Shown here: positions 42,458 to 47,965 of the stretch, in pieces
Layout of the letters: every line of letters begins with the position of its first letter
How positions within the stretch are numbered: position 1 is the first letter of the stretch
Assembly (NCBI GenBank): GCA_039679645.1
Contig: JBDKUO010000009.1
Coordinates: forward strand, 138,324-202,323
Direction of reading: 5' to 3'
Length of the DNA stretch: 64,000 nucleotides
From: Armatimonadota bacterium
GTDB taxonomy: Bacteria > Armatimonadota > UBA5829
The notes under the pieces: model-generated
Databases searched by the model: none
The model's input: the letters and a program-made list of their open reading frames with translations, nothing else
What the model was told of the DNA's origin: nothing
Translations under genes and position numbers: made by a program

Positions 42458-42575
42458 AGTGACGTGTTTGAACATCGTCACAAAACGTTCATTCGTGCGT
42501 TCGCCCTGTGGGCTTTTTCTCTGTTCGAACAGTATGTGGTAAAATACGGTTACAAGCTGCAAAAGGAGTAATGGC

Positions 42576-42779
42576 ATGAGTGCTGTTGACAAAGCCACAT
42601 ATATTGTGGATTCCGAAGGGCATCGGACTGCCGTAGTGCTTCCGATAGAGGCTTTTGAAGCAATAATCAGCGAGCTCGAAGATTTGCGTGATGCGCAATA
42701 TGTAGATAAAGTAGAGGCATCCGCAGAAGGATTTGTTTCACTTGATGACCTCAGGCAGGTCCTCAGGAAAGCTTCGTGA
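42576..42779 (+). CDS. Type II antitoxin (Phd/YefM- or RelB-like)
   Basis: 67 residues. The start is ATYIVDSEGHRTAVVLPIEA, then FEAIISELEDLRDAQYVDK and LDDLRQVLRK, the pattern of short beta-strand plus helical antitoxins that pair with RelE/ParE toxins. The stop overlaps the toxin start by 4 nt (GTGA). It should repress its own promoter and neutralise the toxin. Confidence 0.85.
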   Translation: MSAVDKATYIVDSEGHRTAVVLPIEAFEAIISELEDLRDAQYVDKVEASAEGFVSLDDLRQVLRKAS

Positions 42780-43036
42780 ACTACCGTGTCGAAGTAGAAA
42801 ATCGCGCTGCGAAACAGATTCGTGATTTGCCTGTAAGTGGGCAAGAGCGAGTGATGGATGAACTCGTCAATCTGCAGGCACAGCCCAGGCCGTCCGGCTG
42901 CAAAAAGCTCAAAGGACATAATGAACCAACCTGGCGCGTTCGTGTTGGCGACTACAGAATACTATATCGCATTCACGACGAGCGGCATCTTGTTCGGGTA
43001 TATGGTGTCTTGCGCAGAGATGAGGCGTACCGCTGA
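42776..43036 (+). CDS. RelE/ParE-family toxin
   Basis: 86 residues from GTG 42776. Signature: YRVEVENRAAKQIRDLP, CKKLKGHNEPTWRVRVGDYRI, LYRIHDERHLVRVYGVLRRDEAY, a RelE-superfamily mRNA interferase with the conserved R-VGDYR-Y core and C-terminal R..D.Y. It is translationally coupled to its antitoxin. Confidence 0.93.
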   Translation: MNYRVEVENRAAKQIRDLPVSGQERVMDELVNLQAQPRPSGCKKLKGHNEPTWRVRVGDYRILYRIHDERHLVRVYGVLRRDEAYR

Positions 43037-43137
43037 TTACCCGACTTAACGCCATCATCTTCGATCTCCATTCCACACTTATCCCCTGGTGCGAAAAACG
43101 GTTTTCGCACATTCGCCGACATATTCTCTGCGCCTAG
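43036..43137 (+). pseudogene. HAD-hydrolase N-terminal relic 1
   Basis: Right after the RelE stop the frame reads ITRLNAIIFDLHSTLIPW, CEKRFSHIRRHILCA, then TAG (43135-43137). It has no start codon. It matches HAD motif I (IIFDxxxTLI), but the second Asp is His, and the rest of the gene is missing. It is homologous to relic 2 at 44985-45077 (both share LIPWCEK). It is the first element of a duplicated 2-kb unit. Confidence 0.65.
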
Positions 43138-43154
43138 ATCGCACAAAATACTTT

Positions 43155-43179
43155 GTAACATATTCCTATAACCGGTGTC
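43155..43179 (+). promoter_or_regulatory. ECF-type promoter of membrane sigma gene 1
   Basis: GTAAC (43155-43159) and GTC (43177-43179) are spaced by 17 nt, 30 nt before the start codon. The same pair with the same spacing stands before sigma gene 2, while the nucleotides between differ. The layout fits the -35 (GxAAC) and -10 (GTC) boxes of autoregulated ECF sigma genes. Confidence 0.6.
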
Positions 43180-43208
43180 ATTAAGTATGAAGACGCCGGA
43201 GGTGGGTA

Positions 43209-44954
43209 ATGCAGATTAACGATTCACAACTGATAAGCGACATTATGCGGGGTGACAAGACCGGCTACGAGTCTCTGATCGAGAAGTATAAGAAGATGGT
43301 ATATGGCATCGCATGGAGCCGTTTGGGCGACAGTGATCTCTCGGAGGACGCCGCGCAGGAAACCTTTATCAAGGCCTACACATATCTCGCAACCCTTCGT
43401 GAGCCCGATAAGTTTCAGGGCTGGCTCGCCAGAATCGCGCGCAATGTCTGCACTTCGCTGAGTCGCAGAGCCAGACGCGATAATGCATTCAAGCAGAGGT
43501 GGGCACTGCTTGAGTCTGCTGAACCACAATCCGGTCACGATGAGTGCGAATCGCCTAAGGAGCATCTCTGGCAGTCATTCGCCGAACTTCCCGATGTGCA
43601 CCGTGAGGCTCTCACTCTCTATTACATCGAAGGCAAAAGCACAGCCGAGACTGCCGCAGCGCTTGGTATAACCGAGCAGGCTCTGCGCACAAGGCTCCAC
43701 CGGGCCAGAACCGCCCTGCGTATTCAGTTGGAGAAGAATCTTGAGGACGCGCTCGGCGATCTTCAGCCCAGGAAAAACTTCACGCATTCGGTGCTCGTTC
43801 TGCTTCCGCTTTCGCCGACAGGCGCAATCAGCAGTGGTGGTGCGCTTGCCGTGTTCGGCAAACTGTTAGCCGGCCTCTCATTCGCATTGTGGATTGCAGC
43901 GGTTCAGATATTTGCGTTGTTAACGATGTTTTCCAAGCTGGACGAGGCCAGCCTTGAGGACAAACCTGAGAATCGGTCAATCAAAGCGTTTATCAGACGC
44001 GGCTACATGAAATTAGCGGTCATGATGTTCGTAACTTTCGTGGTTTACTGGCTGTTGGCGCAGCACTTCGGTTCAAGCATTCTGCTCCAGATATCCTGCA
44101 TCTGTTGCGTCTATATGATCTGGAAGGTATTCAAGCTTCTTCGAGTAAACACGAGCACAGCGGCAATTGGATACGCGCTTGCGATCGCGATCTTCTTCAT
44201 TGCCACTGTCGCTGGGGCTTTCTTCCAGGCGGTCTGGCTGTATTTCATAGCGATGCTGTTGATGACTGTAATAATGTACTTCGCCAAGCAGAAAATGCCC
44301 CAAAGAGTCGGCTTCAATCTGTTCACGGGCAGCGCATTGGGCATCTTCGGGGACTTCGAGGATGATCAATCGCTGGAGTGCAGGCTGACCAGGATGGAAC
44401 TGCTCTCGTTTGCGAAGTTTCTGGGTGGACTCTGGCTGGTGCAGGACTATAAATGGCGTGCCGACGGAATTACACTCTTCGCCGGTGGTTCCAAGGCAGC
44501 AATCACCTGGGACGGCGCTTGCACCGCGATGATGAGCGCCAAAGATCTGAAGGTCGCCCGGCAACTGCTCGGTCGCAGCGTTGAAGCAGCGGAACTGCAA
44601 GATGATGCGTGTCGAGCGGTTCGATTTGCATTGAACTGCTTCCTCCGAGGCGATTTGGAGGCCGCGCGCGAAGTTCTTTCTCATGAAATACCATCGGCCC
44701 AGAACCTAACCGCCGCCAGACACAACCGCGTCAAGTCCCTTGTATGTGTCTGGCTTATGGTAGTAACTATCGTGATGTTGCTCGTGATAACGCTCGTGTC
44801 GCGGCTTGTTGAAACATCTGAGAAAGTGAAAGAACTATATCACGTGGCGGGCGCGTACTACTTTCTGCTCGTGCCGGCGGTAGGCTTCATAGTGGCGATA
44901 CTTGCGGTGGCGATCACCTTGCGCAGAACCCGCCGCCAGAACCGCTTGTTATGA
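43209..44954 (+). CDS. ECF sigma factor fused to polytopic membrane domain, copy 1
   Basis: 581 residues, about three times the usual ECF length. Region 2 (about 17-90): YESLIEKYKKMVYGIAWSRL, DLSEDAAQETFIKAYTYL, FQGWLARIARNVCTSLSR. Region 4 (about 118-172): FAELPDVHREALTLYYIEGK, STAETAAALGITEQALRTRL. From about 205 there are four or five hydrophobic helices (LSFALWIAAVQIFALLTMF, LAVMMFVTFVVYWLLA, and others), then a soluble domain of about 140 residues (FTGSALGIFGDFEDDQSL, DGITLFAGGSKAAITWDG), then two more TM helices at the end. No anti-sigma gene is nearby; the tail may fulfil that role. GGAGGTG precedes the ATG. Copy 2 follows. Confidence 0.9.
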   Translation: MQINDSQLISDIMRGDKTGYESLIEKYKKMVYGIAWSRLGDSDLSEDAAQETFIKAYTYLATLREPDKFQGWLARIARNVCTSLSRRARRDNAFKQRWALLESAEPQSGHDECESPKEHLWQSFAELPDVHREALTLYYIEGKSTAETAAALGITEQALRTRLHRARTALRIQLEKNLEDALGDLQPRKNFTHSVLVLLPLSPTGAISSGGALAVFGKLLAGLSFALWIAAVQIFALLTMFSKLDEASLEDKPENRSIKAFIRRGYMKLAVMMFVTFVVYWLLAQHFGSSILLQISCICCVYMIWKVFKLLRVNTSTAAIGYALAIAIFFIATVAGAFFQAVWLYFIAMLLMTVIMYFAKQKMPQRVGFNLFTGSALGIFGDFEDDQSLECRLTRMELLSFAKFLGGLWLVQDYKWRADGITLFAGGSKAAITWDGACTAMMSAKDLKVARQLLGRSVEAAELQDDACRAVRFALNCFLRGDLEAAREVLSHEIPSAQNLTAARHNRVKSLVCVWLMVVTIVMLLVITLVSRLVETSEKVKELYHVAGAYYFLLVPAVGFIVAILAVAITLRRTRRQNRLL

Positions 44955-44984
44955 TAGTAAACTCGACAAAGGGAGTAAGCTGCA

Positions 44985-45077
44985 TTGCAATATAACGGCG
45001 TCATCTTCGATTTCCCCGGCACACTGATCCCCTGGTGCGAAAAATGGCTTCGCATATTGCTCTTAAATGTTGCTTAA
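44985..45077 (+). pseudogene. HAD-hydrolase N-terminal relic 2
   Basis: TTG 44985 (GGGAGT upstream) opens a 30-residue frame MQYNGVIFDFPGTLIPWCEK plus WLRILLLNVA, ending in TAA. It shares IFD..xTLIPWCEK with relic 1; the second motif-I Asp is Pro. Truncated HAD domain, part of the second duplicated unit. It could still be translated as a short peptide, but no function is implied. Confidence 0.6.
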
Positions 45078-45079
45078 GT

Positions 45080-45176
45080 TGTTTCGGTTGCGAAGCGGCC
45101 GAATCCGCCATCGAAGATGAAGAGTCTTCCAGACTCGGCTTCGGCCCCGCCGCTTCGCTCTGGAACCGAAGCAACG
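45080..45176. repeat. Long imperfect palindrome (GCGAAGCGGCCGAA element)
   Basis: TCGGTTGCGAAGCGGCCGAA near 45082 can pair with CGGCTTCGGCCCCGCCGCTT and CTGGAACCGAAG further right, with bulges. Its left arm, through GCCATCGAAGATGA, recurs at 47997-48042. It separates relic 2 from the second sigma promoter. Confidence 0.6.
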
Positions 45177-45189
45177 AACGAAATATTCA

Positions 45190-45214
45190 GTAACCTTTTC
45201 ATATGACCGGTGTC
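45190..45214 (+). promoter_or_regulatory. ECF-type promoter of membrane sigma gene 2
   Basis: GTAACCTTTT (from 45190) and GGTGTCATTAA (GTC at 45212-45214) have the same 17-nt GTAAC-to-GTC spacing as the first copy. GTAACCTTTT is close to the common ECF -35 consensus. Confidence 0.65.
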
Positions 45215-45243
45215 ATTAAGTATGAAGACGCCGGAGGTGGGTA

Positions 45244-47010
45244 ATGCAGATTAACGATTCACAACTGATAAGCGACATTATGCGGGGCGACAAGACCGGC
45301 TATGCGTCTCTGATCGAGAAGTATAAGAAGATGGTCTACGGCATCGCATGGAGCCGTTTGGGTGATGTCGATCTCTCAGAGGACGCCGCGCAGGAAACCT
45401 TTATCAAGGCCTACACATATCTCGCAACCCTTCGCGAGCCCGATAAGTTTCAGGGCTGGCTCGCCAGGATCGCCCGCAATGTCAGCAACTCTCTGAGCCG
45501 CAAAACCAGGCGCGAGGATGCGTTCAAACAGCGATGGGCAGTCCTCGAATCCGCGGAGCCGCAGCAATGCCGCGACGAGAGCGAATCGCTGACGAAGCAG
45601 CTCTGGCAGTCCTTTGCCGAACTGCCTGATATTCATCGTGAAGCGCTCACTCTCTTTTACATCGAAGGTAAAAGCATTTCCGAGACCGCCGCAGCGCTCG
45701 GAATAACCGAGCAGGCTCTGCGCACCAGGCTCCACCGCGCTCGTCTTGCTTTGCGTATTCAGTTGGAGCAGAAACTCGAAGAAACGCTGGATAATCTGCA
45801 GCCGAGTAAAGATTTCACGCGTTCAGTGCTCGTTCTGCTTCCGCTTTCGCCGACAGGCGCAATCGGCAGTGGCGGAGCGCTTACTGTTATCTTCGGCAAG
45901 CTGTTTGCCTCGCTCTCGTTTGTAATGTGGATGGCAGCAGCTCAGGCACTTGCGATGTTAGGCCTATTTACGATGTATTCCAAGCTGGACGAGGCCTGCC
46001 TTGAAGACAAACCGGAGAAACGGCCAATCAAAGCGTCTATCAGGCGCGGCTACATAAAAGGTGTGGCCTGGATGTTCATAGTTTTCGTGGTCTGGGGGCT
46101 GTTGATTTCACACCGCCAAGAAAACGCCATGTACGCAATGACCCAGGTCGTCAGTCTGCTGTGGGCTTATATGACCTGGCGAGCATTCAAACCTCTTCGA
46201 GTAAACACGAGCACAGCGGTGATCGGAGGGGCGCTCGGAATTGCGATTATCTTCATTTCCATTGTCGCGTTTGCTTTCTTCCATGCATCGCCCTACCTGT
46301 TTTTTATAGCGGGGCTGTTGAGCAATATAATAGCCTACTTCACCAACCAGGCAACCCCCCTAAGAGTTGGCTACAATCTGTTCACGGGCAGCGCGATGGG
46401 CATCTTCGGGGACTTCGAGGATGATCAATCGCTGGGACGCAGGCTGACCAGGACGGAACTGCTATCGTTTGCGAAGTTTCTGGGCGGACTCTGGCTGGTG
46501 GTGGACTACAAATGGCGCGCCGACGGAATCACACTCTTCGCCGGCGGTTCCCGAGTCACAATCACCTGGGACGGCGCTTGCACCGCGACAATGACCGCCA
46601 AAGAGCTGAAGGTCACCCGGCAACTATCCGTTGGTCGCAGCTTTGAAGCAGTGGAACTGCAAGACAATGCGTGTCGAGTGGTCCGATATGCATTGAACTG
46701 CTTCCTCCGAGGCGATTCGGAGGCCGCGCGCAAAGTTTTCATTCCTGACGAAACACCATCGGTTCAGAGCATAACCACCGCCAGACACAACCGCGTCAAG
46801 TCGCTTGTAGGAGTCTGGCTTATGACGGTGACTCTCGCGATGTTTCTCGTGATGCCATTTTTTGAGCCATCTGAGAAACAGAAGGAACTTCATCACTTTG
46901 GGGTGGGCACGTACTGCATTATGATCATGCCGGCGGTGGGCTTCTTGGTAGCGATACTTGCGATAGCGATCACCTTGCGCAGAACCCGCCGCCAGGATAG
47001 TTCATCATAA
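45244..47010 (+). CDS. ECF sigma factor fused to polytopic membrane domain, copy 2
   Basis: 588 residues, a close paralogue of copy 1 with the same start (MQINDSQLISDIMRGDKTGY) and domain order. The sigma regions are most alike (DLSEDAAQETFIKAYTYL; ITEQALRTRLHRARLALR). The membrane helices have diverged more (GVAWMFIVFVVWGLLISH). The soluble domain keeps FTGSAMGIFGDFEDDQSL and RADGITLFAGGS. Two C-terminal TM helices close the protein. It is preceded by its own ECF-type promoter and GGAGGTG. Confidence 0.9.
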   Translation: MQINDSQLISDIMRGDKTGYASLIEKYKKMVYGIAWSRLGDVDLSEDAAQETFIKAYTYLATLREPDKFQGWLARIARNVSNSLSRKTRREDAFKQRWAVLESAEPQQCRDESESLTKQLWQSFAELPDIHREALTLFYIEGKSISETAAALGITEQALRTRLHRARLALRIQLEQKLEETLDNLQPSKDFTRSVLVLLPLSPTGAIGSGGALTVIFGKLFASLSFVMWMAAAQALAMLGLFTMYSKLDEACLEDKPEKRPIKASIRRGYIKGVAWMFIVFVVWGLLISHRQENAMYAMTQVVSLLWAYMTWRAFKPLRVNTSTAVIGGALGIAIIFISIVAFAFFHASPYLFFIAGLLSNIIAYFTNQATPLRVGYNLFTGSAMGIFGDFEDDQSLGRRLTRTELLSFAKFLGGLWLVVDYKWRADGITLFAGGSRVTITWDGACTATMTAKELKVTRQLSVGRSFEAVELQDNACRVVRYALNCFLRGDSEAARKVFIPDETPSVQSITTARHNRVKSLVGVWLMTVTLAMFLVMPFFEPSEKQKELHHFGVGTYCIMIMPAVGFLVAILAIAITLRRTRRQDSSS

Positions 47011-47101
47011 TAAAAAGGAACATGTGTGGCCGCGGCGAATCATTTCCCATGCGGCAAGCGGCCGTGCTTAGTTAAGTGTGGGGATAAATGGGAGGATAGT
47101 T

Positions 47102-47965
47102 ATGAAACGTGTAATTCCAATTGTAATTGTTATCGCTATTGCAGTCGGGTTGTATTTTGTAATTTCGGGAAACAGGGCAAATGGACTGAACTTTGAGTAT
47201 AAATTCAAGCCTGGCCAGGTCGACAAATATAAGACCACAATGGATATGACCATGACTATGCCCGGCATGCCAAGCAAGCTGACCGGCGGATCTTCGGCCA
47301 TGACTGTGGACACCAGCTGCATTACAACCCAAAAAGTTCTGAATGTAAAGTGGAATGGATCGGCCAATGTTGAGGTTGCGCTCAGCAATTTTCAGATGAC
47401 GGCGCCGGGTATGCCTGCCGGTATGATACCGTCTATGCCGGATCAAAAATATACTATGACGATGTCTAAGGATGGTGAATTTGGAAACGTCAATATTACG
47501 AGCGGAGCACAGCAGCAGAACGGTATGGATATGAAAAGTCTTTTTAATCAGATGAGCTCTTACCATATGCCGGGGAAGCGGCTGAAACTGGGCGACAGTT
47601 ATGAGACTACAGTCCCAATGCCGTTTGGCGGCGATATGAGAGTTGTCTCCAGGCTCGCAGCATTAAATGTCCCGATTGCCGGGACCACCGCCGCAAAAAT
47701 AATTCAGAAGTACGCAGGTCACTGCAATTTAAGCGAGATGGCGAAGAAACTCAAAAAAGGAAGCTCTCAAGCTCAAGGTTTTATGTCCAAAGGCACTATG
47801 GATATCGATGGACATGGGGTAATTTACTTTTCGATCACTGAAGGTAAGCTGATAGAAACTCATACTGCCTCAACTGTAACAATAAAGACCGATATGCCTG
47901 GAGCTGCTGCGGGCACGGGTGAGATGAAAATGGATATGAAGATGAGCATGGTGAAGATGAAGTAG
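47102..47965 (+). CDS. Membrane-anchored Met-rich protein, unknown function
   Basis: 287 residues from ATG 47102 (GGAGG upstream). One N-terminal TM anchor (VIPIVIVIAIAVGLYFVIS), then an extracytoplasmic beta-rich part beginning FEYKFKPGQVDKYKTTMDMT. Methionines are abundant (MTMTMPGMPSKL, PGMPAGMIPSMPDQK, and the ending MKMDMKMSMVKMK). The layout resembles DUF6263-like secreted proteins that start with a KPGQxYKY motif; this is from memory. A metal-binding role for the Met-rich ends is possible but unproven. It follows sigma gene 2 by 91 nt and may belong to its regulon. Confidence 0.75.
   Translation: MKRVIPIVIVIAIAVGLYFVISGNRANGLNFEYKFKPGQVDKYKTTMDMTMTMPGMPSKLTGGSSAMTVDTSCITTQKVLNVKWNGSANVEVALSNFQMTAPGMPAGMIPSMPDQKYTMTMSKDGEFGNVNITSGAQQQNGMDMKSLFNQMSSYHMPGKRLKLGDSYETTVPMPFGGDMRVVSRLAALNVPIAGTTAAKIIQKYAGHCNLSEMAKKLKKGSSQAQGFMSKGTMDIDGHGVIYFSITEGKLIETHTASTVTIKTDMPGAAAGTGEMKMDMKMSMVKMK

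Follow-up and report, generated by a model that had tools for sequence, protein, structure and literature searches.

Membrane-fused extracytoplasmic function sigma factors of Armatimonadota with a predicted promoter of their own and recombined heads and tails

Extracytoplasmic function (ECF) sigma factors are a main bacterial link from the state of the envelope or the cell to gene expression, and their anti-sigma factor is usually a separate protein. At least 26 ECF groups carry N- or C-terminal extensions (PMC8999054), and membrane-fused ECFs have already been described, namely ECF48, ECF52, ECF53 and IutY (PMC8999054; PMC5826349). Proteolytic processing has been shown for IutY (ECF243, Pseudomonas putida) and proposed for ECF52 and ECF53 (PMC8999054; PMC5826349), and there is evidence of positive autoregulation for SCO4117 of Streptomyces coelicolor (PMC5826349; PMC8999054). 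Here we analyze two tandem genes for ECF sigma factors fused to a membrane tail, which lie in a 64,000-nucleotide stretch (the window, to which all coordinates refer unless a contig is named) of contig JBDKUO010000009.1 from an Armatimonadota bacterium. An earlier reading of the letters alone (the original prediction) had pointed out these genes. We put at roughly 60% the probability that each of them encodes a self-contained membrane-tethered ECF sigma factor that is silenced by its tail, freed by a signal and acts on its own promoter.

Copy 1 (W1, 581 residues) occupies 43209-44954 and copy 2 (W2, 588 residues) 45244-47010, both on the plus strand. Both open reading frames are intact, and Pfam searches and hydropathy agree with the original prediction of tandem ECF-membrane fusions, in which sigma regions 2 and 4 lie within the first 175 residues and a hydrophobic tail follows. 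Sigma70_r2 was matched at residues 23-90 of W1 and W2 (E-values of 2.8e-16 and 2.3e-13) and Sigma70_r4_2 at about residues 119-170 (~1e-13 and 7e-13), all above the Pfam cut-offs, and the match to TIGR02937 exceeds its cut-off in both. With regions 2 and 4 present and region 3 absent, both belong to the ECF (group 4) class of the sigma-70 family. The head of copy 1 corresponds to residues 1-175 (43209-43733, plus strand; PF04542 and PF08281). The two proteins are 74% identical overall, 87% in the sigma part and 58% in the helices, and the ratio of nonsynonymous to synonymous substitution rates (dN/dS) between the heads is ~0.11, clearly indicating functional constraint. The scores of regions 2 and 4 above the Pfam cut-offs, together with this purifying selection, make it probable that the head works as a sigma factor. 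The DNA of the two copies is 81% identical over ~1.8 kb, and since this likeness begins ~70 bp 5' of the ATG, the duplicated unit includes the promoter.

A profile search with the tail recovered full tail relatives in only six of 291 Armatimonadota genomes. Five of these genomes belong to one genus, the present genome with its three copies among them, and the sixth is assigned to a different family within that order. The eight copies are W1, W2 and C40 of this genome, and G241, G242, G243, G244 and G229. Every full tail is joined to a sigma head, and a frameshift, which would have separated the sigma part from the tail, is made unlikely by the same unbroken fusion in five further full-length copies. 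We ruled out frameshift and mis-assembly because the fusion is unbroken in seven copies, and in the eighth (G241) head and tail are parted only by a 2-N assembly gap. Sought on its own in the 291 genomes, as the original prediction had suggested, the tail was never found without a sigma head, and none was found in plasmids or viral contigs. Likewise, a search of 28 genomes of the class with the head alone led to these eight loci and to no close relative lacking the fusion. Tail matches in the distant Armatimonadota genomes G068 and G021 (E-values of 2.6e-4 and 3.9e-4 over 68-100 residues) were too weak to be accepted as relatives. The sole separate tail piece, 46 residues long, lies next to the G244 gene (L035:7121-7249, minus strand); this decayed fragment resembles the C40-type tail and appears to be left from a second copy that was lost. 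For G229, the contig that carries the fused gene may be a binning contaminant, its TrpE being 72-73% identical to that of genus g1 while the LeuRS of the G229 genome is 46-57% identical; given this possible contamination, we do not claim transfer between families through G229.

As the original prediction had stated, no anti-sigma gene was recognized among the adjacent genes examined at W1/W2 (LeuRS, a RelB-like/ParE pair and a 295-residue protein without a Pfam match), and by inspection there is no conserved neighbor at the other copies. The zf-HC2 domain was not detected in either protein or in any tail (Pfam, E-values up to 1 and 0.1), and Pfam scans detected no other anti-sigma domain and no SnoaL-like or TPR domain in the tail, and no FecR family match in the two proteins. 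No iron-uptake gene was recognized among the W1/W2 neighbors. The tail as a whole has no Pfam family above cut-off, no PHROGs match and no PDB relative; the matches below cut-off to DUF7942, DUF7220 and Nuc_H_symport were weak and unconvincing. Elsewhere in the window, an ordinary soluble ECF factor and a zf-HC2-type partner, read directly from the sequence, are encoded at ~25.2-26.0 kb on the minus strand.

The tail comprises hydrophobic segments, a soluble stretch of ~140 residues and two final hydrophobic segments, and a linker of ~15-20 residues joins it to the head. In copy 1, the conserved junction and the first membrane block of ~six helices span residues 190-362 (43776-44294), the soluble alpha/beta domain, predicted to be cytoplasmic, spans residues 363-500 (44295-44708), and the last two membrane helices with an RRTRRQ C-terminus, a predicted cytoplasmic end, lie at 44709-44951; the soluble domain of copy 2, likewise predicted to be cytoplasmic, lies at 46354-46773 (all on the plus strand). 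With a custom simple score that combines hydropathy and the positive-inside rule, the N-terminus, the soluble domain and the C-terminus are all predicted to be inside in all eight copies, and the numbers of helices before and after the soluble domain are 6+2 in seven of them and 4+2 in G244. The final two helices and the ~140-residue soluble domain of the original prediction are thereby borne out, and the four or five helices that it placed before this domain are best replaced by six. The predicted inside loops contain several Lys/Arg residues close to the membrane and the predicted outside loops are mostly short with few Lys/Arg (the longest has ~23 residues, apart from a loop of 35 residues in G244, for which the prediction is doubtful), suggesting that the soluble domain is probably cytoplasmic. 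This result does not support the idea of an extracytoplasmic sensor between the membrane segments: an extracellular sensor role for the domain is improbable, and a cytoplasmic one would be compatible with the predicted topology. Modeled alone, the soluble domain of copy 1 gave an AlphaFold2 model with a predicted local distance difference test score (pLDDT) of 77 and a predicted TM-score of 0.73, in which two short strands, a helix, four strands and three helices follow one another. No significant structural match to this model was found; the best Foldseek E-value was 0.034, and the best VIA-align Z-score, 5.1, to phosphoglucomutase C-terminal and TBP-like folds, is in the chance range.

ECF promoters typically have a -35 element close to AAC, a 16-base spacer and a CGTC-like -10 element. 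In all eight copies, GTAAC-N16-YGTC with an exact 16-base spacer ends 27-30 bp 5' of the ATG (43155-43179 for copy 1, 29 bp from the -10 to the ATG, and 45190-45214 for copy 2, both GTAAC-N16-TGTC on the plus strand). This putative promoter fits the ECF form, and a conserved block runs from it to the ribosome-binding site in all eight copies. The extended element occurs in the 3.4-Mb genome with zero mismatches at the three paralogues only; allowing up to three mismatches added none and the reversed control gave none. Across the genus, the zero-mismatch matches to a shorter form are all at fused-sigma genes. Because these matches are confined to the family's own genes, autoregulation is the natural inference, and each fused sigma factor would transcribe its own gene. 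An inverted repeat, CCGGTGTC-N12-GACGCCGG in copy 1 (43172-43199), overlaps the -10 element and reaches the ribosome-binding site, and its counterpart in copy 2 (45207-45234) overlaps the -10 element there (both on the plus strand). The arms are present in all eight copies with the consensus CCGRYGTC-N11/12-GACRYCGG, and their changes are partly compensating (G-C to A-T in C40). Because the left arm coincides with the -10 element or precedes it, the repeat would act as a DNA site rather than as an RNA hairpin in the transcript, possibly as an operator for some repressor; a search of the region against Rfam for an RNA structure or riboswitch gave no match.

Comparison of the copies separates two head types, I (W1, W2 and G241) and II (C40, G242, G243, G244 and G229), which are 65-69% identical in nucleotides between types and 79-90% within, and three tail types, A (W1, W2, G242, G243, G244 and G229), B (G241) and C (C40). 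The -10 element follows the head type, being TGTC with type I and CGTC with type II. The head-tail pairings present are I-A, I-B, II-A and II-C, and the divergence at fourfold-degenerate sites differs between the two parts of one gene. W1 and G242 differ at 39 of 54 fourfold sites in the head (0.72) and at 22 of 124 in the tail (0.18; p=4.7e-12), whereas C40 and G242 differ at 25 of 80 in the head (0.31) and at 33 of 46 in the tail (0.72; p=1.5e-5). As a yardstick, we used the LeuRS genes of the same genomes, whose fourfold divergence ranges from 0.43 (between this genome and G242) to 0.62. Type A tails differ by 0.13-0.24 and, being below this range, are closer than their genomes, and the type B and C tails, as well as type I against type II heads, are near saturation. 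The sliding identity shifts near residues 166-240, at the conserved junction FTxSV(L/I)VLLP. At residues 271-345, W2 resembles G242 far more than W1 does, implying that exchange also occurred inside the tails. Applied to the heads, the approximately unbiased (AU) test rejects the tail grouping (p 4e-41). The fourfold-site comparisons indicate, with no claim built on G229, that heads and tails have been swapped by recombination between paralogues and species. The original prediction of a duplication with diverged helices holds for the duplication and for the divergence, and two inputs are possible, with the qualification that a large share of this divergence comes from tail segments exchanged in mosaic fashion between copies. 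More broadly, and at somewhat less than even odds, the copies may be single-protein transmembrane switches of one family whose two modules, the sigma head together with its promoter and the membrane tail, are inherited separately; recombination at the conserved junction, both inside a species and across species, would then rewire inputs and outputs in new combinations. Literature searches on domain swapping of sigma factors gave nothing that seemed relevant, judged by titles and abstracts.

Starting from the fusion, the predicted topology, the conservation of the promoter and the head/tail exchange, all established by computation, we propose the following mechanism. A cytoplasmic sigma head would be joined by the linker to a 6+2-helix tail whose alpha/beta domain also faces the cytoplasm. 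At rest, this tail would keep the head at the membrane and off RNA polymerase and would stand in for the usual anti-sigma protein. Once a signal reaches the membrane part or the cytoplasmic domain, the head would come free, either because the linker is cut or because the protein changes conformation, and the freed sigma factor would transcribe its own gene from GTAAC-N16-YGTC, possibly together with a small regulon. The tail would be an interchangeable module: through recombination, different heads have acquired different tails, and a single tail type occurs with either head type. That the tail anchors and silences the sigma domain, as the original prediction had it, fits the constant fusion, the missing recognized partner and the lack of lone tails; for both the silencing and the release of the head, which we infer, the described membrane-fused ECFs (IutY, ECF52 and ECF53) served as models.

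The head could instead be active while tethered, with a tail that is not an inhibitor and either localizes transcription near the membrane or is itself an effector. A tail without a recognizable anti-sigma domain and a linker of ~20 residues that exposes the head would suit such a protein, and the swapping of tails between heads that are only ~66% identical argues against a finely tuned inhibitory interface. However, an always-on, self-activating ECF factor would create a runaway loop, and the characterized or predicted membrane-fused ECFs (IutY and ECF52, PMC8999054; SCO4117, PMC5826349) are thought to be inactive until processed, so we consider an active tethered head unlikely. Slightly less unlikely, in our view, is that the tail is a membrane carrier or enzyme with its own activity and that the head signals the presence of the tail's substrate through coupled conformational changes, with no proteolysis involved. 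Six to eight helices exceed the needs of an anchor, and the soluble domain, with a modeled alpha/beta fold, is 78-87% identical among type A tails; but no transporter or enzyme family was matched, and the helices are the least conserved part of the protein (58% identity, dN/dS ~0.8 between W1 and W2), unlike a conserved transport path.

The head/tail discordance, for its part, could reflect unequal constraint, on a slowly changing tail or at the nucleotide level, rather than recombination. It is true that the AU test on the tail leaves the head grouping standing (p-AU 0.47) and that the C40 and G241 tails are long branches, and the discordance therefore rests on synonymous divergence and not on topology. 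At fourfold sites, however, it runs in opposite directions in W1-G242 and C40-G242, and with type A tails below LeuRS and types B and C near saturation a general nucleotide constraint is excluded, making unequal constraint the least probable of these alternatives. Several points count against the tail-silenced, self-transcribing sigma factor that we favor. The first predicted helix (~residues 195-216, in the helix pair 195-241) contains prolines and glycines and is doubtful, and for G244, scored as 4+2 helices, the N-out score is about equal to the N-in score. The full-length AlphaFold model has a pLDDT of 45, too poor to examine head-tail contact, and membrane insertion is predicted, with silencing and release proposed by analogy. 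Part of the promoter conservation might be due to a recent common origin of the whole unit, and no regulon beyond the family genes was found in the genus, where matches with up to two mismatches were fewer than those of the reversed-pattern control.

Genes for the RelB-like antitoxin and the ParE-family toxin (42573-43033) lie directly 5' of a HAD remnant and copy 1, and the 295-residue protein (47078-47965), which has an N-terminal hydrophobic segment and no Pfam or PHROG match, is encoded directly 3' of copy 2. The remnants before W1 and W2 match the start (20-30 codons) of a gene for a HAD-family hydrolase, of which G241 carries an intact version directly 3' of its fused gene. With this intact protein as the query, tblastn located one remnant upstream of copy 1 (43042-43104; 67% identity over 21 residues, E 1.3e-4) and one between the copies (44985-45074; 50% over 30 residues, E 5e-5), both on the plus strand. 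In G242 and G244, a tRNA-Pro(CGG) gene lies 150-440 bp 5' of the fused gene (L032:8724-8800 and L035:9481-9557), which might mark an insertion site.

The same genome encodes other long ECF fusions. On contig C62 (L028:1772-3019, minus strand), a protein of 416 residues joins an ECF head with regions 2 and 4 to a class II tRNA synthetase core (PF01409, E 5.8e-24, residues 208-409), an unusual pairing that may serve to sense tRNA or an amino acid. On contig C37 (L027:1510-2865, plus strand), a protein of 452 residues combines an ECF head, a hydrophobic segment and a SecDF P1-head domain (PF22599, E 1.6e-14). Of two more, on contigs C54 and C42 (L026:1852-3528 and L029:1748-3049), one has winged-helix-like matches and the other a near-cut-off zf-HC2 domain.

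A compact fused ECF factor without a recognizable anti-sigma domain and with exchanged heads and tails would show how such switches get rewired. The eight copies are a natural set of head-tail chimeras for asking if membrane tethering alone silences a sigma factor, and the predicted topology and promoter can be checked directly.

Among the described systems, the proteins resemble ECF48, ECF52 and ECF53 of Actinobacteria (for example SCO4117 of Streptomyces coelicolor), which also carry an ECF head and a C-terminal membrane part (predicted here) on one polypeptide, with no separate anti-sigma factor (PMC5826349; PMC8999054). Those groups, however, have a zinc finger (ZAS-type) and one or two helices (variable in ECF52), whereas the present proteins have no zinc finger and about eight helices (PMC5826349; PMC8999054), and ECF52 has a proline-rich and carbohydrate-binding part outside, in contrast to the predicted cytoplasmic soluble domain in an Armatimonadota host (PMC8999054). 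IutY is likewise an ECF sigma factor fused to a membrane C-terminus and is the model for release by regulated proteolysis, but its C-terminus is anti-sigma-like and it serves an iron-starvation surface-signaling system, whereas the tail here is polytopic and no such anti-sigma domain was detected in it (PMC8999054). In ECF41, ECF42 and ECF56 a fused C-terminal domain also regulates in place of an anti-sigma factor; these extensions are soluble, SnoaL-like or TPR, with no membrane part, unlike the membrane-type tail described here (PMC8999054). Some ECF36 members share a multi-helix membrane part, but as an N-terminal extension of three or four helices with DUF2275, whereas here it is C-terminal and contains no named domain (PMC8999054). 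The original prediction had asked whether the tail marks a known ECF subgroup with described regulation; none was found in the literature searched, and no ECF described in the passages of PMC8999054 consulted combines a polytopic C-terminal tail, a cytoplasmic domain and the lack of a zinc finger, the comparison being by description only. The fused ECF is thus a known idea, of which the zinc-finger-free, polytopic version with a predicted cytoplasmic domain appears, from these descriptions, to be a distinct variant.

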